Below, piece by piece: positions 840 to 32,550 of a stretch of 39,794 nucleotides of DNA; positions within the stretch are counted from its first letter, which is position 1, and each line of letters starts with the position of its first letter. The DNA is from Bdellovibrionales bacterium (GTDB lineage Bacteria; Bdellovibrionota; Bdellovibrionia; Bdellovibrionales; UBA1609): positions 1 through 39,794 of the forward strand of contig JALZUR010000019.1 in the NCBI GenBank assembly GCA_023301025.1, in the 5' to 3' direction. The notes below the pieces were generated by a model that did not search any database, had not been told where the DNA came from, and worked only from the letters and a program-made list of their open reading frames with translations. Both the position numbers and the translations under genes were made by a program.

Positions 840-2006
840 TTATATGTAAGATCCTTCTTTAATTTTTTGTAAAATAATCTTTTCAGGCATAATTGGGTCT
901 TTCGGATCTACTGAAAACAAGGCCTGTTGTTCGCAACGAATTTTGTTTTTAATTAAAAAATGTAGAATTTGTGAAAGCTTTTTATTTTTTTTATCTTTAA
1001 AAAAAGGATCATTGTTTAAAACATCTTTTGCTTTTTTTAAAGCTCTTAGCTCTGAAGCATCTTTGTCTTTCACTTCATAGTAGTAAAGATCATACTTTTT
1101 AATGTCTTCTGGAAGAACCCCTAAAAAGCGTACTTCAGGAGCCGAAAAGTCTGAATTTCTAACTAAGCTTGCAGCACTACCTGCTTTTAATGTTCTAAAA
1201 ATATTTTGCATTGTGTAAGCATCTAGATCTCCAAAAAAATAAATTGGGATCTTTAACTGATCTTGAATAAGCTTACACCAGCCTCTTACACCATTTGATG
1301 GAACTCCTTGAGCACCCATAAGAATGCAATTGTTTCTTTGGGTAAAACCATTAGACACTAAAGTGTTTGCCGTACCTTCTGATTCAACTACCAAACAAAA
1401 ATCAATTCGTTTTTTAGCTCTTAAGCTTAAAGACTGAGGCTTGTTTTTTGGTTGAAAAGGAGTCGTACCGAGTTGTCCAAGATCAATAACAGCCTTTGAG
1501 CCATCGGGAAGAGTTTCAGTAACTTCTAACTGTTTAGAATACGTTTGCCCCCCTCTATCGTTTGCAAAGCAGTTCATTTCTTCTCTGTAAGCTCTTAACA
1601 TGTCAGTGATAAAATCAATTATTGAATCTGATTCAGTTTGCTCCTCAAAATCTATTGGCTTTAATGATTCACCAGAACCTTTCACCAAACCTTTGGCTAT
1701 GTAGTAAAGCTCTCTTTTTGTGTTAACTGCACCTGACTCAACATTTCTTAAAAGAATTTCTAATAAAAAAACTGTACGAGCAAGCTTTTGAACAGAAGAC
1801 ACATTAAGTTCACTTCTAACTAACTTCTCCCCTGGAGTAAGATAGCCAAGTTTTGAATCGTAGTTGGCATTGTCTAAAGAGCATCTAACAGCTTCTAAAA
1901 CTGGACGCTGAGACGCCTCTAAGTCTTTTAACATTTTGTTACAAAGCTCTTTTGCTTTTTTTGTTATTTCAACACCTGTTTTTGCTTTTCTTTTTTGAAT
2001 GGCCAT
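840..2006 (-). CDS. top6A: DNA topoisomerase VI subunit A (Spo11-like)
   Basis: A 388-residue catalytic subunit of a type IIB topoisomerase, which cleaves both DNA strands through a tyrosine and passes another duplex through the gap. The winged-helix (CAP-like) region holds TKRELYYIAKG near residues 96-106, matching the archaeal ReiYY motif with the catalytic Tyr at 101 or 102. The Toprim fold is visible as VVESEG (Glu208) and FGDLDAYT (Asp260, Asp262), the expected magnesium ligands. Length is close to the archaeal subunit (about 360-370 residues). It follows the B subunit on the same strand with a 76-nt gap, so both subunits are present. Topoisomerase VI is typical of archaea and plants and is uncommon in bacteria. 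The start is an ATG after a weak GAGAA-type ribosome site. Confidence 0.93.
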   Translation of the reverse strand: MAIQKRKAKTGVEITKKAKELCNKMLKDLEASQRPVLEAVRCSLDNANYDSKLGYLTPGEKLVRSELNVSSVQKLARTVFLLEILLRNVESGAVNTKRELYYIAKGLVKGSGESLKPIDFEEQTESDSIIDFITDMLRAYREEMNCFANDRGGQTYSKQLEVTETLPDGSKAVIDLGQLGTTPFQPKNKPQSLSLRAKKRIDFCLVVESEGTANTLVSNGFTQRNNCILMGAQGVPSNGVRGWCKLIQDQLKIPIYFFGDLDAYTMQNIFRTLKAGSAASLVRNSDFSAPEVRFLGVLPEDIKKYDLYYYEVKDKDASELRALKKAKDVLNNDPFFKDKKNKKLSQILHFLIKNKIRCEQQALFSVDPKDPIMPEKIILQKIKEGSYI

Positions 2007-2082
2007 ATTTTTTCTCTACTTACTAGCTTTCTTGCTTGTTTTTGTCTTACTTACTTTTATAATTTTTGCTTAAAGAGTCTTA

Positions 2083-3834
2083 TTATTTTTTCTTTTTACT
2101 GGTTTTTTTCTTACTTTTTTTCTTAGCTGTTTTTTTAGCACTAGCTTTTTTAACCTCTACAACTTTAGTATCTTCACCATCAGCCTCTGATTTATTTTCA
2201 TTGGAACCTGTTGCTGTGCCTTCTTTGGCCTTTAGTTTATCAAGTCGCTCTTGGGCTTTATTTAGTGCAGCTTCTGCAGAGTCTGCATCTTTTCCTAGAA
2301 TTACATCTAACCCTTTAATGGCTTTTTTCTTCCTAGCATCACTAGCCCCAATGATTCCAACCAAACCCTCAACTAAGATAGGCCCAAACTTTTCAATATA
2401 AGCTTTTTTTCTCTCTAAATCAGCAGCGCGAGCCTCTCTTTTTATATGACGAGAAAGCTTTTGCCCAGCTTGCATAAGTGCACGCCTAATTTCTTCAATC
2501 AACTCATCTGAAGAGTCTATAGTTTCTTTAGATGCATTTTTAAATTTAATAAATGGAGAGGTCACTGAAATAGCAAAAACAAAAGAACCTTGAGGCAAAG
2601 AGTTTTTACTTTGAGAGAGTCCGTAGGACTTCCAGTTTACAGACTCCACTGCACGCGTGATAGCACACGAAGATTTATCAAACTGCAAAGGTACACGGTT
2701 TGCAAAACGAAGAAGTTGGATACTATCGTCTTCTCGTCCACGATTTAAAAAACGAGCAATAGCTACTTCCACAACAACAGGTTTAAAATCACAAATCTTT
2801 GGTTTTCTTGTAACAACACTAAAGAAATCAACTTCACCAAGTCTATTGATGCTATTAGCTAAGCCTTCCTCCCCTACTGTCAGAACAGAAGCTGTTGAAG
2901 GGTTCATTAAATCAGTTTCTTGAATAGCATGAAAGATAGCTTTGAAGTCTTGCTGCTTAATCTTATTCATGGTCAGCGGCAGTAAACTTTTCTTTAAACC
3001 ACTCTTTGTAAAACCTTGAATACTTGCATCTGAAACCCTCGAAAAAGCAGTACGTAAAAACTTTTTTAAGGTGAGATTTCCATAAAGAAGGGCATGAGTC
3101 ATAAACTCCCCAAGCTTCATAGTATGAGGGTGTGGCAGTGTTGGTGGTGGTACACTTGGTATTTTGTCACTCACTCTTTCAATGTTAACCCAATCATTCT
3201 CATGCACTTTATAATTAAGAGTAAGGTGTGGATTAACTAATGCCGTTCCTTCAAGATACGTTAAAAGTCCTCCATCACCATTTAACTGAAGTCTTCCATC
3301 AATTTTAAACTCTGTGGCTGTTCCGTGTTTTTTATCTTTCCAATCAATAGTGTCTTTAGCTTTAACAAGTCCTTTGTTGCCTTTTATGTCCACATCGATC
3401 TTCATCTCAACTGCTTTTCTCATTGCAGAGGTTTTACTTTTTACCGTAACACCTGCAGCATTTGTAAGTTGCGCCCAAGTGGTTGCAGCTGATATTCCTA
3501 TACCCTGTTGCCCTCTGGAGCACTGACCACGTCCAAATTTTGAAGAAGCCAAATACTCTCCAAAAACCTTTGGTACAATCTCAGGCTTTAGCCCCGGACC
3601 ATTGTCTTCAACATATATACGAATAAGGTCCGTGTTTCTGCCTCCACCTTTACCAATTTTTTCAATAATAACTGTAATTTCTGGAGCAATCTGGTTCTCT
3701 TCGCAGGCATCAAGTGAGTTGTCCACCGCCTCTTTTAAAGTGGTTAAAACAGCCTTTGTTGGGGATGAAAAACCCACCTGCTGAAGATTTTTTGCGAAGT
3801 ATTCTGCCGTACTTGAGGATGTGATTTTAGACAA
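2083..3834 (-). CDS. top6B: DNA topoisomerase VI subunit B (GHKL ATPase)
   Basis: A 583-residue ATPase subunit. The GHKL Bergerat fold is intact: KEAVDNSLDACEE (Asn39), VEDNGPGL (Asp77) and the glycine-rich lid SRGQQGIGISAA (107-117), then GTATEFKID. The middle contains the helix-two-turn-helix region, and the transducer domain follows with PFIKFKNASKETID, where the archaeal switch lysine lies. The last ~27 residues are almost all Lys, Ala, Ser and Thr, a basic tail that I do not expect in archaeal homologues. The start is a TTG at 3834, chosen because AGGAGA lies 8 nt upstream and the sequence MSKITSSSTAEYF matches the family N-terminus. A good promoter sits at 3873-3901. The partner subunit is the next gene downstream. 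Confidence 0.94.
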   Translation of the reverse strand: MSKITSSSTAEYFAKNLQQVGFSSPTKAVLTTLKEAVDNSLDACEENQIAPEITVIIEKIGKGGGRNTDLIRIYVEDNGPGLKPEIVPKVFGEYLASSKFGRGQCSRGQQGIGISAATTWAQLTNAAGVTVKSKTSAMRKAVEMKIDVDIKGNKGLVKAKDTIDWKDKKHGTATEFKIDGRLQLNGDGGLLTYLEGTALVNPHLTLNYKVHENDWVNIERVSDKIPSVPPPTLPHPHTMKLGEFMTHALLYGNLTLKKFLRTAFSRVSDASIQGFTKSGLKKSLLPLTMNKIKQQDFKAIFHAIQETDLMNPSTASVLTVGEEGLANSINRLGEVDFFSVVTRKPKICDFKPVVVEVAIARFLNRGREDDSIQLLRFANRVPLQFDKSSCAITRAVESVNWKSYGLSQSKNSLPQGSFVFAISVTSPFIKFKNASKETIDSSDELIEEIRRALMQAGQKLSRHIKREARAADLERKKAYIEKFGPILVEGLVGIIGASDARKKKAIKGLDVILGKDADSAEAALNKAQERLDKLKAKEGTATGSNENKSEADGEDTKVVEVKKASAKKTAKKKSKKKTSKKKK

Positions 3835-5998: not shown

Positions 5999-7582
5999 TC
6001 AGTAGACACTCATCAAACCCATTTGCCCTCCAACACTCTCTTCAAATTTTTCCATAGCTTTGATAGCATCAGATATTGGAAAACGGCTGCTGTTAAGACT
6101 ATTTTCTAAATCAGAGCTTACTCCCAAATGATTGGTTATAGCTAAAGTTTCGGCGTTTCTTAAAGCCTCAACATGTGAGTTTAAAGCGTTAATGTGAGCA
6201 TGTGTCTGTTCAAGTTGAAGGTAGAATTGCCCTAGAGAAATATGAGTGACGGCCACTGAGTCCAATCTCGAATTGTAGGACAGAAGGGCTGTTTGATCAA
6301 TTGATTCTGTATCAAATCTTCTCAGCTCATCAAGCTCTACGCCTAAAACTCTTAAAAGGTCACTCACAAGTTTTCTTGTAAGAATAATATGCCCTACGGC
6401 TTCAGTTAAGCTTTTATCTAAAAAAGCCACTACTTTTTGATGGCTCTCTTTACTTTTAATTTCGCCAACCTCTAGCTGCTCAAATCTTTCCTTGATAATA
6501 CCTTTGTTTCGATCATAGACATCAAGCCACTTTATAAAACCATCAAAAAAAACTCTTGATATCTCAGCTTGCAAATCAACAACATCAGAAGAGTATGCAA
6601 GAAAATTTTGATCCGTCACTTCAGTTCTACCAACAGGAGATGAACTTTCAGATTGCGCCGCTTCAAAATCAAGTACTATAGAATCCACCACGTCTTTATA
6701 CTCCGTAAGCTTTGCGCTAAGATCTTGAGGCACGTAAAAAATTGATGCATCTGGTGAGTGAACAAGATCTATTTTTTTATGCCTCTCAGCTAAATTTTGA
6801 TCTACAGATTTTATCGCAAGACGAGATTTGTAGTAAAAGCGTCTGGCAGAATCAGAAAGACCTAGAGCACCAGCCTTAACAACAAGCCAAAAAGGAATCG
6901 CCTCAGGCATCTCAGACCAAAGACTGTAAGTGTAATAAGGACCAGACTCGTAGCTAAGCCCAGCAGCCGCACCTGCAACCGCTAAACCCACTGTTGAAAG
7001 TCCAAGCTCGGCTAAGGCGATCTTTTTAGTTTTTTTAAAAGCTTTTGAAATTAAGTCTTCTCTGTCTATAAAACCAGCCTCACCGACAACCATTAAAGTC
7101 TCACCAATAGCATCAAGAATTTCAGCGTCTGAAAGGCTTAAAAGTGTATCTCTCGCTCTACTAATAGTGTAGTCAGGTAAACTCGCATCAAAATTTGTGC
7201 TGTTATCAATTCCAGATTTTATCTCTTCAAGTAAAACCATAGAAAGCTGATCAAGCTGTTCTGCATTTAAGGCTTTGATCTGATCTGGAGTCCTAAATTC
7301 AAAATCTAGACCCGCACTTAAAGCTCTTGGTTTAGAATTTTCTAAGGAGCTTCGAAAAAATACGGAATAAAGGATTCCAGCTTCAGTAAGTCTTTCAACC
7401 GCTCGGCCAGTCGCAACTGCATCATTTGCTCTGAAGCGCTGAGTCTTGGTCTCAGCTTTAGAGTTAAGACTTAAAACTTCCAAACAAGACTTCTCAGTCA
7501 AAATTGTTTGTGTCTGAGCATTCGCACATGCAAAAGTCAGAACAAAAAAGTAAACGAAAAAAGACAGATTGGTTTTGATCAC
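5999..7582 (-). CDS. Exported helical protein of unknown function, last gene of the TAXI/VWA operon
   Basis: A 527-residue protein starting at a GTG (AGAGG 8 nt upstream) with a signal peptide (about residues 1-22, ending ACANA). Residues ~195-235 include an Ala/Gly-rich hydrophobic stretch (LGLSTVGLAVAGAAAGLSY) that could be a membrane helix or buried hairpin. The remainder, particularly 300-520, looks like long amphipathic helices (FLDKSLTEAVGHIILTRK, then LGQFYLQLEQTHAHINALNSHV), compatible with a helical bundle or coiled coil. I recognise no domain. It starts 26 nt after the SBP-VWA gene, so it is almost certainly cotranscribed and likely acts with the three exported binding proteins upstream. 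Confidence 0.7.
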   Translation of the reverse strand: MIKTNLSFFVYFFVLTFACANAQTQTILTEKSCLEVLSLNSKAETKTQRFRANDAVATGRAVERLTEAGILYSVFFRSSLENSKPRALSAGLDFEFRTPDQIKALNAEQLDQLSMVLLEEIKSGIDNSTNFDASLPDYTISRARDTLLSLSDAEILDAIGETLMVVGEAGFIDREDLISKAFKKTKKIALAELGLSTVGLAVAGAAAGLSYESGPYYTYSLWSEMPEAIPFWLVVKAGALGLSDSARRFYYKSRLAIKSVDQNLAERHKKIDLVHSPDASIFYVPQDLSAKLTEYKDVVDSIVLDFEAAQSESSSPVGRTEVTDQNFLAYSSDVVDLQAEISRVFFDGFIKWLDVYDRNKGIIKERFEQLEVGEIKSKESHQKVVAFLDKSLTEAVGHIILTRKLVSDLLRVLGVELDELRRFDTESIDQTALLSYNSRLDSVAVTHISLGQFYLQLEQTHAHINALNSHVEALRNAETLAITNHLGVSSDLENSLNSSRFPISDAIKAMEKFEESVGGQMGLMSVY

Positions 7583-7608
7583 TGATTAAGCCTCTTAAAA
7601 GTTTTTAG

Positions 7609-9810
7609 TTAAAGCTGAGAGTTGAAAAGTTTTGCCATCTTTTCGTTAAGCTCTTCAACACTTCTAATTTGTAGAACCGCACCCTCAGTTAAAATCCCAA
7701 GCTCATTGATCACATCTTCTCCTGCACCGCTGCCGAAACCGATTCCATGAATCTGAATTCCAAAGCGTCTGGCGTAAAAAAGAATAGCATCAACTTCAAT
7801 ATCACGAATATTAAGTAGAGAAGGCTCTCCATCCGTCAGTAAGAAGACCATTTTTTTTACGTCTTCATCACCTTGGACTTGGTCGGCTTTTTCCAAAACC
7901 TTTTCCATACCGACTAAAAGAGCCTCGTATAAGGGTGTTCCTCCGTCAGCTCTTAAAGTTCTTGAGGCTTGCACAAAAGTTCTTCTCACATCAGTTGTAA
8001 AAGGCTGGATGGGCACAAGCTCATTGATCTGTGTGGCGTATTCGATCAATCCAACATTCATGTCTGGACGAATAAATCCACTCGCAATCTCAAGAGCTTT
8101 TCTAAGGGTTGAAATCTTTCCGCCCTCCATTGAACCACTCACATCAGCCACAAAAGTAGCAACTACAGGAACTCCACCAGACTTGTTGTCTTTCCAAACC
8201 CGCTGCGCAGTCACAAGGTTATCACCCTCAGGGAGCTCATACTGTGAGAGATAAGAGGCGTTCTCAAAGAATCCATACTCTTTAGCTTTTCTTACAGCTC
8301 CTCTATTTGAGGCTATAAAATCAGCGAAAACTTTTAAGCCTTCAGCATAATGAGCATTTTCTTCTTGAGACAATGAAGCTTGTCCCACATAAACCATGGG
8401 GTTGTCATGTCGAACACCAAAAGGGATAAACTCAAAAAGGTCACTCATCTTAACCTCAGGCTCTCCTTTTTCATTCAGTCTTGTGTTTACAAAACTCTGA
8501 TACTCAACAACACCAGCTTCAATAGAGCCTCCAGTTCGAACCGATTCTCTCATAGCCAAAGTCGTTTCAAAGAGAGCGGGAACACTCTTTTGAAAATTAC
8601 GAAAGGCTAAAACAGCATCACCCTCTACAGGATTTCCAGGAGACAGACAGTTTAGCGCAGTCCACAAAAAGTTTAATCCTGTGCTAGAAACATAGGGGTT
8701 TGTATAGCCAATGCTTAACTCTCCATTTACTGCCATATTAACGATAGTGCAGGAGTCTGTAGCTTTTCCATTTGGAAATTTTTCTTTAAAAGTATCTTTT
8801 CTAACAAATACACCAGCTACGTTTCCAACAACACCATCAACATTGTTTTCAACATTATCTAGAGCCGCTTGGTCAGATTCAAATTCTTTAAGAGCAATTT
8901 TTTTTCTTCTTATAGCTACAGGCTCAACGGTATAATCAGAAGTTTCACCACTTCTTGCATCTAACATTTTTACCCACAAAGAATTTGAAGGGCTGTAAGC
9001 CAAGCCCTCAGACCTATTTGCACTCCCTGTGTATTTGCCATTTGAAAGATACTGATAAGCTGTTCCAGATGCCATTTTTCTAACACGTATTTGTATGACC
9101 TTACCTGATTTTGTCTTTTTGTTTTTAGAGTTAAACTCCTCAGCCATTTCAATAAGAAAGTCATCGCTAAAAGACTCTTTTCTAGAGTCATCAGGCGTGG
9201 CTTTTTCACTAGAAGAAAGAAGCTCTAAGACAACATAGTCGCAATCAGACTGCTCTTGGTTAACACCACAGCGAGCACCACTTGCAACTATAGGATACTT
9301 TTCATCAGTCACTTCAGGTAAAAGCGATACAAGATCCTCATCACTTAAGCTTGCCTCATCAACTTTTTCAGTTTCAGGTTTTGAATTAATAGACCCACCT
9401 TCTTTTAATAAACCACTTTTGACAGAATGAGCGAGATTTTTCCACTCTGTTAAACATTGGTCTTCAGCTTTTTGAGCAAGAGCGGATCTTTCTTCCTCCT
9501 CAGCCACTTGTCTTGTTAAAAATTCAAGCCTAGATTTGTGCCCATCAATTCTTAATGACCACTCCTCTTTACAACTGCTCAACCAACAGCTGTCTAACTT
9601 TTTTTTAGCATCTTCAAGCTGAATGGCTGCAATTTGAAGGTCTTTCTTAAGGAGGTTCAAAGCTGAGTCGTCACCTAGAACTTCCTTGAGATCACCACAC
9701 TGGGACACTCTTAAACCCTCCTGAATTCTATCCGCAAAAGCAGTGCTCACGCTCATAAAACACAAGAGATTGACCAATACTAAATTTTTAAACTTAAATT
9801 TACTCTTCAT
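7609..9810 (-). CDS. Exported substrate-binding / von Willebrand factor A fusion protein
   Basis: A 733-residue protein. After a signal peptide (ending TAFA) comes a Cys-containing coiled-coil segment (about 30-140), then an acidic linker, then a type 2 periplasmic-binding-like region (~170-510; for example LAYSPSNSLWVKMLD, GVVGNVAGVFVRKD, IGYTNPYVSSTGLNFLWTAL). The C-terminus (~550-730) is a VWA domain with a complete MIDAS: DVSGSM (DxSxS, Asp near 556), the DGGTPL threonine and LLTDGEP. A VWA domain with an intact MIDAS binds a metal-dependent protein ligand. Solute-binding/VWA fusions occur in other bacteria without a settled function. The start at 9810 is preferred because AGGA lies 6 nt upstream; ATGs at 9813 and 9858 are alternatives. 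It follows two TAXI-like genes and precedes the helical gene, all one strand. Confidence 0.85.
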   Translation of the reverse strand: MKSKFKFKNLVLVNLLCFMSVSTAFADRIQEGLRVSQCGDLKEVLGDDSALNLLKKDLQIAAIQLEDAKKKLDSCWLSSCKEEWSLRIDGHKSRLEFLTRQVAEEEERSALAQKAEDQCLTEWKNLAHSVKSGLLKEGGSINSKPETEKVDEASLSDEDLVSLLPEVTDEKYPIVASGARCGVNQEQSDCDYVVLELLSSSEKATPDDSRKESFSDDFLIEMAEEFNSKNKKTKSGKVIQIRVRKMASGTAYQYLSNGKYTGSANRSEGLAYSPSNSLWVKMLDARSGETSDYTVEPVAIRRKKIALKEFESDQAALDNVENNVDGVVGNVAGVFVRKDTFKEKFPNGKATDSCTIVNMAVNGELSIGYTNPYVSSTGLNFLWTALNCLSPGNPVEGDAVLAFRNFQKSVPALFETTLAMRESVRTGGSIEAGVVEYQSFVNTRLNEKGEPEVKMSDLFEFIPFGVRHDNPMVYVGQASLSQEENAHYAEGLKVFADFIASNRGAVRKAKEYGFFENASYLSQYELPEGDNLVTAQRVWKDNKSGGVPVVATFVADVSGSMEGGKISTLRKALEIASGFIRPDMNVGLIEYATQINELVPIQPFTTDVRRTFVQASRTLRADGGTPLYEALLVGMEKVLEKADQVQGDEDVKKMVFLLTDGEPSLLNIRDIEVDAILFYARRFGIQIHGIGFGSGAGEDVINELGILTEGAVLQIRSVEELNEKMAKLFNSQL

Positions 9811-9890
9811 CATTATTCCTTTCTTAAAACTATTAAAATATAAAATTTTTGAAACCAACTTGCACCTGTCAAATTCTTCTCTAACTTATC

Positions 9891-11150
9891 TTAGTTAGAT
9901 GAGACTATTTCTCCCCAGTGTTCTTGGATAAGACCGAGCATCTCACCCCATAAAACTCCGGCATTTTCTCCACCTTCGGTAAAATAAGTATTGAACTCAT
10001 CCACTTTAATTTCTGGATCTAATAAATTTTTATGCGCGTAAAGTGCAGCTCTCGTGCAAACAGTCTGAACCTGCTTCGGGCTTTGTTTTGAAACATTAAC
10101 ATTTCTTAAGTGATAAGCTGAAGTGTCTCTATTCACAAAAGGCTCATCAGTATCTGCTGTTTGCACAGGCGTGCTGTTAAATTGACTAAGTGTTTGCGCA
10201 AGTAAATCCTGTGCATCAACAGTAGGGGGTGAAACTGTGTCTGACACTGAAGGCTTTACACTTTTTAGTATATCTTTGGGATCTCTTTTTAAAAGTTCAG
10301 GTGTAAGTTTTTGAGCAAGCTGTGAGTCTCCGAAATCCATCAAATCCAAGTCAGAATCTTCCATGACCTGCAATAATTTTGAATTCTCTAAGTTACTTGG
10401 ATCCGCAACCCATATAAGAGCCTCCATTTTAGACTTAGGATCTTTTAAATCTGCATAAGCTTTATCAAACTCTTGAAGCTTCTTACCCATACCATAAAAC
10501 TTAGACTCTTCTTTATCTGCAAAACCGTAGTGAGGGTTAAGGGACGTAATAAAAGACCAAGTGTAGAAGGATCCACTCCCTTTACTCCCAATATTGATGT
10601 TGGGTCTTTTATTTGGGTCAGAGTACTCTTTTTGAAGGTCACTCATCGTGTTTACTGATTTCTTTTTATTATAAGCTACATAAACACATTCATCTACAAG
10701 TTCAGTTACAAAACGAACATCTTTAAATTTAAAGCTTTCAATCTCCTCAACATCTTCGCCCTGATCGTCTAGTGAAAGCTCGCCTTCTGGTATGGTTCCA
10801 TCAAATTTAAACTCTAAAAAAAGCTGTACATCTTTTTGTGCCAAACCAAATACACTGCTGCCTTTTGCGATGTTGACAAGATTTTCAAATGAGCCTTTTG
10901 AGTACTGAACTTCATAGAAACCAAAGCCGTAGTCATCCATATAAGTTGAAAAGCCCTCTCCAAAAACTCCAACATAGGAGCCACCAGCCCCACCAGCACT
11001 TAGACTCATACAAATGTCACCACCGGCACCATAAACTTCTTGAAGAGTAGGGTTTCCATTCTCACATTTTGCATCTGCTCCAGCCAAAGCTCCGAAGAGT
11101 AAAACACTAAAACTCACTGAGACGAATCTTAAAAACTTAATAACCTTCAT
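9891..11150 (-). CDS. TAXI-family TRAP solute-receptor-like protein (second paralogue)
   Basis: A 419-residue exported protein. The signal peptide ends GADA near residue 27. The mature start carries the TAXI signature (GGDICMSLSAGGAGGSYVGV, then KGSFENLVNIAKGSSVFGLAQKDV), and later RPNINIGSKGSGSFYTWSF matches the second conserved TAXI block. TAXI proteins bind small organic acids such as glutamate and normally feed a TRAP membrane transporter; no TRAP permease is encoded here. An acidic insertion and a Ser/Thr/Pro-rich segment (about 300-345) lengthen it beyond a typical ~320-residue TAXI protein. The start at 11150 is chosen for the AGGTGA site and a standard signal peptide. Upstream in-frame ATGs at 11183 (overlapping the previous stop as ATGA) and 11177 are possible. 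Confidence 0.78.
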   Translation of the reverse strand: MKVIKFLRFVSVSFSVLLFGALAGADAKCENGNPTLQEVYGAGGDICMSLSAGGAGGSYVGVFGEGFSTYMDDYGFGFYEVQYSKGSFENLVNIAKGSSVFGLAQKDVQLFLEFKFDGTIPEGELSLDDQGEDVEEIESFKFKDVRFVTELVDECVYVAYNKKKSVNTMSDLQKEYSDPNKRPNINIGSKGSGSFYTWSFITSLNPHYGFADKEESKFYGMGKKLQEFDKAYADLKDPKSKMEALIWVADPSNLENSKLLQVMEDSDLDLMDFGDSQLAQKLTPELLKRDPKDILKSVKPSVSDTVSPPTVDAQDLLAQTLSQFNSTPVQTADTDEPFVNRDTSAYHLRNVNVSKQSPKQVQTVCTRAALYAHKNLLDPEIKVDEFNTYFTEGGENAGVLWGEMLGLIQEHWGEIVSSN

Positions 11151-11179
11151 TAATATTTTCACCTTTTGTTTGTACATTC

Positions 11180-12436
11180 TCATTCCTCTGGAAAATTTCC
11201 TCTGCGCTGTTGTGCTTCTTGAATCACTTCTGTAAATTTAGCTCTAAGCTGATCATTTTGACTGACAACACTATTGTAAAACCTATCACTTGCGTAAATC
11301 TGAGTTGGTGTCGCTAGTAGAACTGTTTGTTCTGGATTGGTGCTGTAGTAATTGGTGCTGCTAAAATCCAAGTGCTCGTCAGTCATTCTAAGGCTGTTGT
11401 ATTCATCTTTAATTTTCTGCTCTGAAAAAAGTTTGACCCCATTAAAATCTTTTAATTTTAGAAGATTCTCTGTAGCAGAACTTATAATTTTTACAGCTTC
11501 AAAGTAATACCTAAAGATCTCGCCACCATTCATTGAAAGGGTTGGCATTCTCTGATTGAAAGCTGCTGGAGGGCCTAGAGGGCCTCCCATATTGTTTAAC
11601 AGAGTTATAATTTTATGGGGGGACTTACTTACATATAAAAAACAAGCCGTTGGCTTATTAAAAACTTCTAGAAGACCTGCAGAAACCCCATTGTCTAATC
11701 CATTAGATTCATCGATAGCCTGGGAGTTTACCTCAGCCAATTCTTGATACAAACTCTTAAGTGCAAAAAAAGTGGCGTGAGAACCTCCACCACTTGGGCC
11801 CAGATAAACAAGCGGTCTTGGAGTTTTAGAGCCTTCACCTTTTTTTTGTATATCTCTTAAGTAGGCCAAAAAGTCTTCAATAGAATTTATGCCCTTTCTT
11901 GTGCCACTAAGTAAACCTGATTTGTAACTAAAATCTTTTCCTAGCTCTCTGTTACACATAAAGTGAACACTCTCTAAATAAAGTCCACGATCAGACCTTA
12001 GAAGCTCATTAGTAAGCGAGACTGGTTTATGGGCTTCTAAATCTTCAACTGATAGGGACTCTCCGGTGTTTTGAAAAAAGTGAGTTGCTAAATCCTTTGC
12101 TTGGTGTTTGAAATAAGGAAGCGCATCTCCTTGGGCAAGAGCTATGTCGCACTCGCCTGCAGCCAACTTTAAATGACTCTCCAGAGAACCGCTACTGTCA
12201 ATAATTTTAACCTTTGAAAACGAAGAGTTAAAATTATTAGAGAGCCAGTATGCAGCTTTTATATACGTGCCCCCAGGTTTTCCTGAACAGATTTTAAGTT
12301 CAAAATCTATAGATTCTGCAAATGATATGCCTGAGAAAAAAATCAAAAAAAGTGGAGAACATAAAAGTGCAATTTTGAATAAATTCAAATCTAAAAATAT
12401 GTGAAAGATGTTTGCAGTAGATCTTCTATTAGGCAT
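11180..12436 (-). CDS. TAXI-family TRAP solute-receptor-like protein (first paralogue), operon head
   Basis: A 418-residue exported protein. After a signal peptide ending SFA comes LKICSGKPGGTYIKAAYWL, then KIIDSSGSLESHLKLAAGECDIALAQGDALPY, the hallmark of TAXI solute receptors (GGTY loop, GS.E.L..LAAGE.D.A..Q.D). PLVYLGPSGGGSHATFFALK is the second ligand-binding block. It is about 100 residues longer than typical TAXI proteins, with an extra C-terminal region. The ATG at 12436 is chosen because AAAGGAG lies 9 nt upstream; an in-frame ATG at 12472 would give an N-terminal extension without a ribosome site. This is the first gene of the four-gene operon 5999-12436. No TRAP or ABC permease is nearby, so the usual role in uptake is doubtful. 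Confidence 0.82.
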   Translation of the reverse strand: MPNRRSTANIFHIFLDLNLFKIALLCSPLFLIFFSGISFAESIDFELKICSGKPGGTYIKAAYWLSNNFNSSFSKVKIIDSSGSLESHLKLAAGECDIALAQGDALPYFKHQAKDLATHFFQNTGESLSVEDLEAHKPVSLTNELLRSDRGLYLESVHFMCNRELGKDFSYKSGLLSGTRKGINSIEDFLAYLRDIQKKGEGSKTPRPLVYLGPSGGGSHATFFALKSLYQELAEVNSQAIDESNGLDNGVSAGLLEVFNKPTACFLYVSKSPHKIITLLNNMGGPLGPPAAFNQRMPTLSMNGGEIFRYYFEAVKIISSATENLLKLKDFNGVKLFSEQKIKDEYNSLRMTDEHLDFSSTNYYSTNPEQTVLLATPTQIYASDRFYNSVVSQNDQLRAKFTEVIQEAQQRRGNFPEE

Positions 12437-12782
12437 CTTAAGACTCTCCTTTAGATACAAATGACAACTCACCAGATATCGATTATTTTTTTAGTACTTT
12501 AGAAGTTCTGCTATTGCCAGCTTTTAGAGCTTTTTGAAAGTATTTCACTTTTGAAAGTATTTAAACCCTGCTGTTTTTGTTGTGACCAGTAGATTACAAT
12601 GTCTATATAGTAAAAAGTGTTCTCTTTAAGATAAATAGAGCAACATAATACAATTAATTATAAGTTCCTTAGCTCAGAAAGATTTTACGTAATTAAGTAT
12701 TGTGGGAACAAACTCAGCTTTTAAAAAAGCGGAGGTACCCCAATAATAAAGGCTTATGATTTCATATATCAAGAAAGCATTT
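12437..12782. other. 346-bp intergenic region upstream of the TAXI operon
   Basis: This stretch lies between the TAXI operon start and the 3' end of the nitronate-monooxygenase-like gene, both on the minus strand, so it must hold the operon promoter. No strong sigma-70 or sigma-54 promoter could be picked out. It contains the direct repeat at 12532-12562 and a small A/T hairpin (GCTTTT-AA-AAAAGC) around 12717-12732. No ORF or RNA gene is evident. Confidence 0.5.
12532..12562. repeat. Direct repeat upstream of the TAXI/VWA operon
   Basis: Two identical 14-bp copies of TTTTGAAAGTATTT at 12532-12545 and 12549-12562, offset by 17 bp, about 100-125 bp upstream of the first TAXI start. Tandem sites at 1.6 helical turns could be an operator for this operon; this is inferred from position only. 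Confidence 0.4.
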
Positions 12783-28012: not shown

Positions 28013-31000
28013 TCAAACTGCAGCTTTCTTCTTTTTAGGACCTTTAATTATCATATAAGCACAAGGCACCCAAATTAACGTTAAAATTGTTCCACTCACC
28101 ATACCCCATGCAATAGACATGGCCATTGGTCTTATAAACTCATCACTTCCCCCAATACCATAAGCTGTAGGTATAAGCCCACTGATAGTTGTAAGAGATG
28201 TAATTACAACAGCTTTTAATCTTAAAACTGAAGACTCTGCAAGTATTTCAACGAGGTCTTCATCTGGGTCTAATACCTTTCGCTCTTCTATAAAAGAGAT
28301 CAAAACTATACCTGAGTTTACAATTATTCCGCAAAGTCCAACAATTCCAATCATTGCCAAAAAGCTAAGTGGAAGACCTTGTAAAAAGAAGGCATAAGCC
28401 ACCCCTACAAGTCCAAGAGGTACAGTGGAGAGCACAATAAATGGAGTTGCAAAAGAATTAAAAACTAAAATCAATAAAGCAAAGATTCCAATCACTGCTA
28501 AAATCATAGCTTGAGAAAGAGATGCCATTGAATCAGCCGTATTTTCAGCTTCTCCACCAAAGACCATAGTAACCGTAGGATGAGATTTTTTAATTTCGTT
28601 AAAAAACTCTAAGGCTTTTTTATTAGCTTCAATTGAAGTGATTGTATCTGTATTTAAATCTGAGGTGATAGTTTTAGCGCGCTTAAAGTCATAGCGTTCA
28701 ATAAATGTTGAAGCCTCTGAATTTTCAATTTTAGAAAATCTTTTAACAGAAATCTTTTTGCCAAAAGGATTTACAACTTCAATGTTCATTATGTCTTCAA
28801 GCGAGTCTTTATCTTTTGGGTTAAGCTCAATAAAATAATCAACATCGCGATTGTTAATGTTTACGTCGTTAACAGGAATCCCAGAAAAAGCTGTCTGAAA
28901 GGCAAAACCAACTTCAGTTAAACTTAGACCTAAAGACTGTGCCTTAATAGAGTCAACACTAAGTTTTACTTCAGGCTCAGCTTTTTGCTCATTAACCCTT
29001 AAGCCCACTAAACCTTTTAAACTGGACATTTTTTTTAATAGCTCTTGGGTGGCAGAATCAAGTTCATTATCATTTGAAGATCTAAGCCTTAAGGTCACTG
29101 GATCTCCCACTGGAGGTCCATTAACTAGAGCTTCAAATTCAAGTCTTTCAGCTTTATCATACTTAATGTCTCTAAGTTTAGTTAAAACGTCTTGTGTAAC
29201 AAGTGTATCTTTTGCTTTATCAGTCATAAAGATTTTCACAATAGCAACTGAACTTGCAGTTTTTCCTTTTGGATCAGCCCAGTCCGTACGAGATGAGCCT
29301 GTAACACCTACTACATACTTTGCAGAATCACCTAAGGTCTCTTTTACAATAGCACTTAATTCTATGATAGCTTTGTTAGTTTGAGCCAAAGAATGTGACT
29401 CTGGCATGGTCACACGAGCAAGATAGATCTCAGTTTGACTAGCCGGAAACAAAATAAACTTATTAAAGACTATCATAAAAACAAATGATGATAAAATTAG
29501 ACCACATAAAGCAAGAATGCTGATGTACTTATTAATTATACATCTTTTAACAAAGGGTTTAAAATTTTTATAAGCCCAATGAGTAAACCAATCTTTTGTA
29601 ACATCACTTTGAGCTTTAAGTTTATCTTTAGCAGTAAGTACTAGTCTTGCTGGTAAAAAGAAAAAGCTTTCAAAAAGACTAAAAAGCAAAGAGGCCGTAA
29701 CAACCAAAGGTATACCAATAATAAACTTACCCATTATACCTTTAGTCACCATCATGGGCAAAAAAGCTGAGATTGTTGTAAGTGCTGTAGCAGTAACTGG
29801 AGCCCATAAAGATTTAATAGAGTTAAGAGCTGCATCTTTTGGCTCTAAACCTTGCCTAGTAAGTCTTACAAAATTTTCAGAAATAACAACAGCATTATCA
29901 ACAAGCATACCTATACTAATAATTAATGCCATAATAGTTATCGCATTCAGGGACATTCCAGAAAGCTGCATATAAACCATTGTGGCCATAACAGCTAAAG
30001 GCAAAGACAAAGCTGTCATAAGACCTGCTCGCCCTCTTAAAAAAACAAACAGAAAAAATATAACTAAAGACAATCCGGCAAGTGCATTAGAATAAAGAAT
30101 TCCTACACGTTTACCAACTCTAGATCCCTCATTTGAATAGACTGTAAATGTGTATTCAGGGTAATCTTCTTTGTAAGATGCAAGAGTTTTTGCAATTTCT
30201 GAGGCAAGCTCAATAATATCTTCACTGGCCTTTTTAGCAATGATTAAGTTTGTGGCTTCTTTGCCATCTAAAAATACCTTTTCATTTGCCTTTTTCCCCT
30301 CAAGCACAACGTCAGCAACATCTTCTAACAAAATACTCGTACCACTTGTCGACGTTCTTACAGCTATTTTTAAAAGCTCTTCTCTGGACTTGAGTTTTCC
30401 ATCAAGCTTTATTAAAAATTTTTCTTCCGCATTTTCTACATAGCCTGCTGGAATTGTTACAGTAGTTCTTTTAATAGCAGCTGTAACTTCTGCAATACTT
30501 ACATAGTTTTCTTTTAGCTTTTTAGCATCTAACTGAATTTTAAATTGAGGATCTTGATAACCTTGAAGCTCTATCATGCTTATTTTTTTATTGTCTTGAA
30601 GGGCTTCGGATAAATTAAACGCAATCTTATTTCTTTCAAAAGCAGTTTCACCACCAACAACAGACACTTCAATAATTGGCATCTCATCAACTTTTACTTC
30701 TATAAAAAAAGGATCTTCTTCTAAATCTATTGGTAATGACGATGTACCTTCAACTGCCCTTTGCAGGTCAGAAACCACATCATCAACATCGTATTTATCA
30801 ATATCAACTTCAGTAAGAATTGTGCTAATACCTGGTTGGCTTATGGACCTAACTCTTTTTACTCCAGAAACCTTTCTGATTTCATCTTCTAAAGGCTTGG
30901 TGATTTTAGATTCGATATCATCAATTGAAGCTCCTCTATAATATGTCAAAACGACAACTTGCCCAAGATTTACATTAGGATAGCTCTCTGAGTTTAGACC

Positions 31001-31093
31001 TTTTAAAGACATAAAGCCCGCAAGCACCACAAAAAGGGTGCATATCATAGTGAATCTTAAGTTTTTTAGAAAAAATTCTGCTGCTGCTTTCAA
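28013..31093 (-). CDS. RND-family efflux transporter permease
   Basis: A 1026-residue inner-membrane pump with the twelve-helix, two-porter-domain RND layout: one N-terminal helix, a large periplasmic porter region (~35-325), helices 2-6, a second periplasmic loop and the last five helices. GMLVDNAVVISENFVRL places the proton-relay Asp399 in helix 4, but the neighbouring residue that is Asp in AcrB is Asn400, as in many NolG/HAE2-type members. IGMVGL... is replaced here by IGIVGLCGIIVNSGIVLISFIEE in helix 10. RLKAVVITSLTTISGLIPTAYG near the end is the conserved helix 11 entry. It overlaps the upstream TolC-like gene by 4 nt. No membrane-fusion (HlyD/AcrA) protein is encoded beside it. The substrate is unknown. 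Confidence 0.92.
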   Translation of the reverse strand: MKAAAEFFLKNLRFTMICTLFVVLAGFMSLKGLNSESYPNVNLGQVVVLTYYRGASIDDIESKITKPLEDEIRKVSGVKRVRSISQPGISTILTEVDIDKYDVDDVVSDLQRAVEGTSSLPIDLEEDPFFIEVKVDEMPIIEVSVVGGETAFERNKIAFNLSEALQDNKKISMIELQGYQDPQFKIQLDAKKLKENYVSIAEVTAAIKRTTVTIPAGYVENAEEKFLIKLDGKLKSREELLKIAVRTSTSGTSILLEDVADVVLEGKKANEKVFLDGKEATNLIIAKKASEDIIELASEIAKTLASYKEDYPEYTFTVYSNEGSRVGKRVGILYSNALAGLSLVIFFLFVFLRGRAGLMTALSLPLAVMATMVYMQLSGMSLNAITIMALIISIGMLVDNAVVISENFVRLTRQGLEPKDAALNSIKSLWAPVTATALTTISAFLPMMVTKGIMGKFIIGIPLVVTASLLFSLFESFFFLPARLVLTAKDKLKAQSDVTKDWFTHWAYKNFKPFVKRCIINKYISILALCGLILSSFVFMIVFNKFILFPASQTEIYLARVTMPESHSLAQTNKAIIELSAIVKETLGDSAKYVVGVTGSSRTDWADPKGKTASSVAIVKIFMTDKAKDTLVTQDVLTKLRDIKYDKAERLEFEALVNGPPVGDPVTLRLRSSNDNELDSATQELLKKMSSLKGLVGLRVNEQKAEPEVKLSVDSIKAQSLGLSLTEVGFAFQTAFSGIPVNDVNINNRDVDYFIELNPKDKDSLEDIMNIEVVNPFGKKISVKRFSKIENSEASTFIERYDFKRAKTITSDLNTDTITSIEANKKALEFFNEIKKSHPTVTMVFGGEAENTADSMASLSQAMILAVIGIFALLILVFNSFATPFIVLSTVPLGLVGVAYAFFLQGLPLSFLAMIGIVGLCGIIVNSGIVLISFIEERKVLDPDEDLVEILAESSVLRLKAVVITSLTTISGLIPTAYGIGGSDEFIRPMAMSIAWGMVSGTILTLIWVPCAYMIIKGPKKKKAAV

Positions 31094-32550
31094 ATGCTAC
31101 CACCCTGACACGAAAATTTTTGAAATTTAGATTTGTACTCTAAAAGAGTTTCAACAATTACTTGAACAATATTAAGCTGGTTTAACTCACTTCCTAAGTA
31201 GTTATTCTGCTCTTGAATTACATCAAATAGATCAACACGCGCTTGTTTGTACTGCTTTTGTTTAAACTTATAACTCTTTTCTAGAGTTGAAGTTGTGTCT
31301 TTTTGATCTTTTAAAGCTTGGTTTAAAAGTTTTATACCGCTAATTGTTTCTTGATGAAGAGCCCTAAGCTCAGCCTTGTCTTTTTCATTTTCAGACTTTA
31401 CTTGAAACCTCTCACTGTTGATTAAATTTTTTCTCTGCTTTTTTGAATAGTTAGACAAAGGCATTGAAAAACTTAAACCAACTGAAAAACCGTATCTAGA
31501 TTCGTCAGCATAATCCTCTAAAGCTTGTAAGTAGCGCGTATCCACATTACTCCCAGAGAGCTGTGCCATAATTTTTAAAGAAGGTTTAGAAAATGACTTT
31601 AAAGAATCTTCAACAAAATTTAAAGATTTCTTACGTTCATCTATTTGATTTGAAAGATAAGAAAGCTCTAAGGGTGCTTCTTTGTAGCTTAAGATAGTTT
31701 GAAGACAGTTGTAAAAAACCTTAGAGTCTTCACTTCCTAACTGAACTGTTTTTAAATCATAACTTAAAGGTAGATTTGGAAGCAGAGACGATAGGTTTTT
31801 TTTAACTTTTTCAATTTGATAACTGATCAAAGCTACATTTGAGTTCTGGCCAGACGTTTGAGATTGAGCAGAGTATAAGTCACCACTTTCGACGAGACCA
31901 TCTTTTTTCTTTTTACGAATATCTTTTAAAAGCTTTTTACTTAAAACCAAAAGTCTTTCATTTATCTTTCGTTTTTCTACTAAAATATTATGTGTCCAAA
32001 AAAGTGTTCGAAGCTTTGCATTTAAATTCTCTTTAGTGATTTCTTTTTCGATATTGAGTGTTTTTAAATTAGCTCTAAGACTTCTTACTTGGTTTAAAGT
32101 TTCAGATCCAAATCTGTTTTTTAAAAGATCCATAGACACTGAAAAAGTAGGATTAATCCTAGCCGAATTGAATGAAAAAGCACCTGGATCATCGCTTGGA
32201 AGACTTTCAATACTTTCACCTAAAACACCAAGACTGTAACCCACCCCATACATAGTGTTGTTGTTAAGCTTTACCTCTGTTGAGTAATAAGGTTTCGGAG
32301 GAGGATCAAAAATTATAAGAGATGGCTCGTTAGTTCTGTTGTATCTTAATGTTGCTTCAAGGTTTGGAGAAAAGTTTAACAGTGTTCCGTTAATCTGAGC
32401 CTCAACTTTTTCAATCTGGGCTTCAAAAGCTTTTAAATGCGGGGACTGTTCTAGCATCTCTAAAAGCTCTGGTTCAGAGAAGACAACAGCAGCATTTACT
32501 TGTGCACTAAAATTAAAAACAATCATAGCAAGTATCAATATAAATTTCAT
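31090..32550 (-). CDS. TolC-like outer-membrane efflux channel
   Basis: A 486-residue protein with a signal peptide (ending VNAA). It consists mostly of long heptad-like helices with two repeated halves (~25-240 and ~260-475), typical of the OEP/TolC trimeric tunnel. LLEMLEQSPHLKAFEAQIEKVEAQI at the start and KSYKFKQKQYKQARVDLFDVIQEQNNYLGSELNQLN at the end fit the family's repeated tunnel helices (A/G-x-x-D/S-x-L-x-V-L-x-x-x-x-x-L). It precedes the RND pump with a 4-nt overlap, so both form one efflux unit. AAAAGGA precedes the ATG. Confidence 0.87.
   Translation of the reverse strand: MKFILILAMIVFNFSAQVNAAVVFSEPELLEMLEQSPHLKAFEAQIEKVEAQINGTLLNFSPNLEATLRYNRTNEPSLIIFDPPPKPYYSTEVKLNNNTMYGVGYSLGVLGESIESLPSDDPGAFSFNSARINPTFSVSMDLLKNRFGSETLNQVRSLRANLKTLNIEKEITKENLNAKLRTLFWTHNILVEKRKINERLLVLSKKLLKDIRKKKKDGLVESGDLYSAQSQTSGQNSNVALISYQIEKVKKNLSSLLPNLPLSYDLKTVQLGSEDSKVFYNCLQTILSYKEAPLELSYLSNQIDERKKSLNFVEDSLKSFSKPSLKIMAQLSGSNVDTRYLQALEDYADESRYGFSVGLSFSMPLSNYSKKQRKNLINSERFQVKSENEKDKAELRALHQETISGIKLLNQALKDQKDTTSTLEKSYKFKQKQYKQARVDLFDVIQEQNNYLGSELNQLNIVQVIVETLLEYKSKFQKFSCQGGSI

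Follow-up and report, generated by a model that had tools for sequence, protein, structure and literature searches.

The available sequence data are compatible with a model in which four neighbouring genes of a Bdellovibrionales bacterium encode an envelope sensor or receptor complex that is built from transport-type binding proteins and does not act as an importer, a reading to which we assign a probability of about 0.4. Specifically, two exported proteins of the TAXI type, P0004 and P0003, are encoded together with P0002, a full-length member of a widespread family of fusions between a solute-binding protein (SBP) and a VWA domain with an intact MIDAS, and with P0001, a helical protein that may be inserted into the membrane. 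The gene set is a new combination around a known architecture, the SBP-VWA fusion, for which no description was found in the open-access literature searched. If the four proteins work together, the binding proteins would be pure receptors, and the pairing of SBP-VWA proteins with membrane or helical proteins in two other phyla would, if the reading is true, represent a general and testable signalling module.

The window, that is, the whole stretch of DNA analysed here, comprises 39,794 nucleotides and corresponds to the complete contig C19; the assembly has a total length of 2.03 Mb, consists of 55 contigs and is 97.5% complete. The four genes run on the minus strand from 12436 to 5999 in the order P0004, P0003, P0002, P0001 (Table 1). 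Their reading frames are intact; P0004 shares 4 nt (ATGA) with P0003, while gaps of 77 nt and 26 nt separate P0003 from P0002 and P0002 from P0001, respectively. These tight or overlapping junctions fit a single transcript. Scans for consensus promoters and terminators around the operon gave matches at chance level only, so that the operon is predicted from its layout. Shine-Dalgarno-like sequences stand before two of the start codons, AAAGGAG before the ATG of P0004 and AAGAAAGGA before that of P0002. Judged by hydropathy and by eye, all four proteins start with an N-terminal hydrophobic segment followed by a plausible Sec/SPI site. An earlier note on this DNA had described four closely spaced genes on one strand, a signal peptide on each product, two TAXI-like proteins of ~420 residues and a solute-binding/VWA fusion, and the analysis agrees with it on each of these points, with the qualification that the signal peptides are of an apparent Sec type and that the TAXI pair is divergent.

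The operon is flanked upstream by a nitronate monooxygenase-like gene and downstream by a small gene on the opposite strand, and no transporter gene is found in the operon or among the flanking genes. The G+C content and GC3 of the four genes are close to those of the rest of the window, and base composition therefore shows no sign of recent import. Elsewhere in the window, a bacterial DNA topoisomerase VI pair lies at 840-3834 on the minus strand (subunit A, PF21180 (TP6A_N), E 1.5e-39; subunit B, Topo-VIb_trans, E 4.6e-46, with a GHKL ATPase), and at 28013-32550, also on the minus strand, an AcrB-type RND pump gene (PF00873, E 2.6e-161) overlaps a TolC-like gene; neither between the two nor next to them was a separate adaptor gene seen.

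Table 1. Positions of the four genes and of domains and segments within their products (window coordinates)
Feature	Position	Strand	Description
P0004	11180..12436	(-)	First gene of the set; divergent TAXI protein with export signal; ATG 12436 preceded by AAAGGAG
P0003	9891..11183	(-)	Divergent TAXI protein with export signal; 4 nt shared between its start and the P0004 stop
P0002	7609..9813	(-)	Exported SBP-VWA fusion; ATG 9813 after AAGAAAGGA
P0002 N-terminal helical region	9364..9729	(-)	~residues 44-165; no counterpart in aligned homologues
P0002 solute-binding domain	8224..9297	(-)	~residues 188-545; AfuA-like class II SBP match
P0002 VWA domain	7618..8166	(-)	~residues 565-747; complete MIDAS
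P0001	5999..7582	(-)	Exported all-helical orphan; GTG start; last gene
P0001 internal hydrophobic segment	6965..7021	(-)	Residues 188-206; strong; candidate membrane span

The two TAXI proteins are distant members of their family that have kept four residues of its ligand site. The NCBIfam model TIGR02122 matches both in part and below its cut-off of 84.35 (P0003, E 4.5e-6, 25.8 bits; P0004, E 1e-5, 24.5 bits), and P0003 also matches NMT1_3 just below the cut-off of that model. Searches of solved structures with the single TAXI sequences of the window gave no match and a profile was needed: built from P0003, P0004 and four relatives from the phylum, this six-sequence profile matched all solved TAXI structures listed with E-values of 1.5e-17 to 1e-11, values to which better TAXI members in the profile contribute, so that they do not apply to the window proteins by themselves. 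The profile suggests a two-lobed Venus-flytrap fold for both proteins. In VcGluP of Vibrio, the ligand glutamate is contacted by Y45, S75, Q93 and E125, and changes of Y45 and Q93 lowered the affinity most (PMC11574862). All four residues are identical in both window proteins, in which the aligned positions are Y70, S98, Q116 and E165 for P0003 and Y70, S96, Q114 and E167 for P0004 (numbered from an upstream GTG at 12472). Their retention at an overall identity of 18-23% speaks for selection on ligand binding, and going by these residues a small, glutamate-like amino acid or carboxylate is a candidate ligand. Elongated TAXI genes at L092 (6742-8481), L093 (7076-9094) and L094 (232-2670), whose products have the TAXI domain at the C-terminal end, have no carrier gene noticed alongside, and the N-terminal halves of the L093 and L094 proteins are of low complexity and rich in Ser, Arg and Lys. 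The TAXI gene of genome G019, which lies beside genes for long exported proteins, was considered as part of a related operon and rejected, its neighbours not being SBP-VWA genes.

To our knowledge, the role known for TAXI proteins is almost exclusively that of feeding carriers. No match to DctM (PF06808), TctA (PF01970) or GltS (PF03616) was obtained in the 97.5% complete genome, with control genomes positive for each, and therefore none of these tested carriers can serve P0003 or P0004; transport by the operon through TRAP, TTT or GltS carriers was rejected on these grounds. The search covered three types, DctM/TRAP, TctA/TTT and GltS, in an assembly that may lack 2.5% of the genome. Within this scope, the earlier observation that no permease accompanies the operon extends to the whole genome for the three types. 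The two TAXI proteins have kept their ligand residues in a genome that lacks the three carrier types known or plausible for TAXI proteins, and without an importer of these kinds, sensing of a small molecule is a likelier role for the set than its import.

The main rival to sensing is import through a carrier of another class, such as ABC or DASS, that is encoded elsewhere. Solute would be delivered to it by P0003, P0004 and the solute-binding part of P0002, while the VWA domain and P0001 tether the receptors nearby. Specifically, the TAXI protein BP0403 of Bordetella pertussis works with GltS, so that TAXI proteins can evidently switch carriers, and as an elongated TAXI protein with a helical N-domain it also illustrates that transport systems can contain extra helical parts (PMC12344293). 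A further TAXI-GltS case, an elongated TAXI gene directly downstream of GltS, is present in a genome of the same family (G003, L095 5502-8166), and the kept ligand residues of P0003 and P0004 also speak for import. The absence of all three carrier types searched for in the genome, and of any transporter in or next to the operon, speaks against this explanation, which we consider rather unlikely.

P0002 is a single-copy protein in the genome. Its VWA domain is recognized by Pfam (E 5.7e-12), and the MIDAS is complete, with DVSGS at residues 572-576 (D572, S574, S576), T641 and D676, all invariant in the family alignment. The SBP part has no Pfam match of its own and was identified by full-length alignment to homologues that match SBP_bac_11, together with a structural model (22 sequences, pLDDT 73) that yielded VWA matches and a match to the class II SBP AfuA. 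Relatives over both the SBP and the VWA parts come from cyanobacteria and Bacillota, with 27-32% identity over ~520-570 residues and tblastn E-values down to 7e-64. The genome scan that found these relatives used a narrower and less diverse alignment as the query; a scan of genome contigs with P0002 alone found no relatives, nor did a scan of viral contigs with the alignment. In a tree, P0002 falls with the Bacillota members (100/99); its branch is long, and its origin is accordingly uncertain.

The VWA model is close to integrin I domains and to the VWA domain of the anthrax-toxin receptor, and with its complete MIDAS P0002 might accordingly bind a polymer at a surface or a protein exposed by another cell, with the receptors modulating such adhesion or cell contact. 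However, the same list of structures holds intracellular VWA domains (TFIIH, Rea1), and similarity of this kind is common to VWA domains generally. The operon shows neither a surface anchor or sortase signal nor a secretion partner or repeats, and the conserved partners of SBP-VWA proteins elsewhere are membrane or helical proteins and not surface structures, all of which makes adhesion an improbable function of the set.

The distribution of the genes raises the question of whether they act together at all. The earlier note had proposed a search for their order in relatives and had named its lack beforehand as grounds for refutation; the order is found in no other of ~360 genomes of the phylum, in which P0001, P0003 and full-length P0002 likewise have no relative, while in 359 phylum genomes searched with a profile, the VWA part alone of P0002 was recovered in 115 others. 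Because the gene set is unknown elsewhere in the phylum, co-conservation cannot show that the four proteins act together. The genes might thus be a lineage-specific or acquired set of mere neighbours, which would account both for the missing relatives and for the fact that the nearest SBP-VWA proteins occur in other phyla. On the other side stand the start-stop overlap of P0004 and P0003, the short gaps, the export signal common to all four products, the intact frames, the ligand residues kept in both TAXI proteins and a base composition like that of the neighbouring genes, and on balance we doubt that the genes are unconnected.

The neighbourhoods of SBP-VWA genes in other phyla provide indirect evidence for a receptor function. 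In cyanobacteria, a family of TM/helical proteins, whose N-terminus has one or two hydrophobic segments and whose remaining part is helical, is encoded close to SBP-VWA in 31 of 32 loci, mostly immediately upstream, the exception (L070) being cut by a contig end. Six Pseudanabaena loci (L029, L056, L057, L059, L063 and L064) encode the partner as the C-terminal third of a protein of 604-619 residues; in the L056 protein, the sole one of these scanned, Pfam identifies residues 88-331 as a CHAT domain. In four Bacillota loci the corresponding position is taken by a two-TM/helical protein that is unrelated to the cyanobacterial family, and one of similar appearance is encoded in a fifth locus (L043); an XpaC-like name for this partner was rejected for want of Pfam support. 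Furthermore, a conserved one-TM protein of ~125 residues follows the SBP-VWA gene in 26 cyanobacterial loci (for instance L039, 3242-3613), and the one that was scanned had no Pfam match. The loci were chosen by their SBP-VWA gene and not by its neighbour, and they are mutually related, so that the figures are not independent counts. No TAXI gene lies near any of the other SBP-VWA loci fetched. We take the recurrent membrane/helical neighbour as evidence that SBP-VWA proteins work with such a partner, and the pairing can be read as a receptor-transducer module that is used here with two TAXI receptors. The ligand-sensing envelope complex proposed earlier is thus partly supported: sensing over import gains indirect support from these neighbourhoods, whereas no conserved gene order is found in the ~360 phylum genomes.

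P0001 adjoins the SBP-VWA gene, is helical and contains one strong hydrophobic segment, and its role could correspond locally to that of the TM/helical partners elsewhere, although it carries a signal peptide, unlike those partners. The likeness is one of analogy, since hhalign finds no relation of P0001 to the cyanobacterial or Bacillota partners, nor to a helical protein of G019. Searches of Pfam, NCBIfam, plasmids and the ~360 phylum genomes found no relatives of P0001, and a single-sequence model is all-helical at a pLDDT of 40, which is too poor to use. The earlier description of P0001 as a helical exported protein stands with one amendment: its strong internal segment, which is followed by a weaker hydrophobic segment starting at residue 225, means that P0001 may be membrane-inserted. 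A TelA-type (toxic anion) operon was also considered for P0001 and rejected, as there is no Pfam match and TelA (PF05816) is absent from the genome. VWA proteins are often assembly factors, including in complex maturation, and the class II SBP part of P0002 matched AfuA, whose fold group includes iron-binding proteins, but a role of P0002 as a metal-dependent chaperone or metal handler for an envelope complex with P0001 as its client finds neither a MoxR-type ATPase nor a metalloenzyme in the operon nor TelA in the genome, leaves the two TAXI proteins unexplained and is improbable.

In the envelope sensor that we favour, the two secreted TAXI receptors would trap a small amino-acid or carboxylate ligand, and their occupancy would be read by P0002. 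The VWA domain of P0002 might then dock via its MIDAS, in a metal-dependent manner, onto another protein. The simplest candidate is P0001, helical and possibly membrane-inserted, which could anchor the complex, scaffold it or relay the signal; no solute would be imported. Each of these steps is putative, from the ligand and the contacts among the four proteins to the relay and the part played by P0001, and the operon contains no cytoplasmic output such as a kinase, a CHAT protein or a regulator, which argues against a sensor. More speculatively, and with a probability that we would call low, the set might belong to a new class of envelope receptors in which transport-type binding proteins report their ligand state to an SBP-VWA protein. 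This protein would in turn signal, by a metal-dependent contact of its VWA domain, to a membrane/helical transducer, apparently joined to a CHAT domain in Pseudanabaena, and two TAXI receptors would have been added here.

Comparison with known systems reveals both shared and differing features. P0003 and P0004 resemble the TAXI SBPs (TIGR02122; TtGluBP, 1US4/1US5; VcGluP, 8S4J) in their profile match and in the glutamate-site residues Y, S, Q and E, which both retain, yet known TAXI SBPs have 300-350 residues, whereas the window pair has ~420 residues with insertions, scores far below the NCBI cut-off and comes from a genome with no TRAP membrane subunit. The elongated TAXI proteins that genomes G019, G023 and G269 of the same phylum encode share the TAXI domain and are the best phylum matches of P0004; unlike P0004, they hold that domain at the C-terminal end of 579-812 residues, and they are accompanied by no SBP-VWA gene. 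The TAXI-GltS system of BP0403 (PMC12344293) likewise combines a TAXI protein without a TRAP permease with a translational overlap with the adjoining gene, but there is no GltS here, and the partners are instead a second TAXI protein, an SBP-VWA fusion and a helical protein. Finally, the SBP-VWA fusions of cyanobacteria and Bacillota, which are annotated only as VWA domain proteins, have the same domain order and the same invariant MIDAS as P0002, which differs from them in its extra N-terminal helical region bearing cysteines, in its TAXI neighbours and in a helical partner unlike theirs in sequence.
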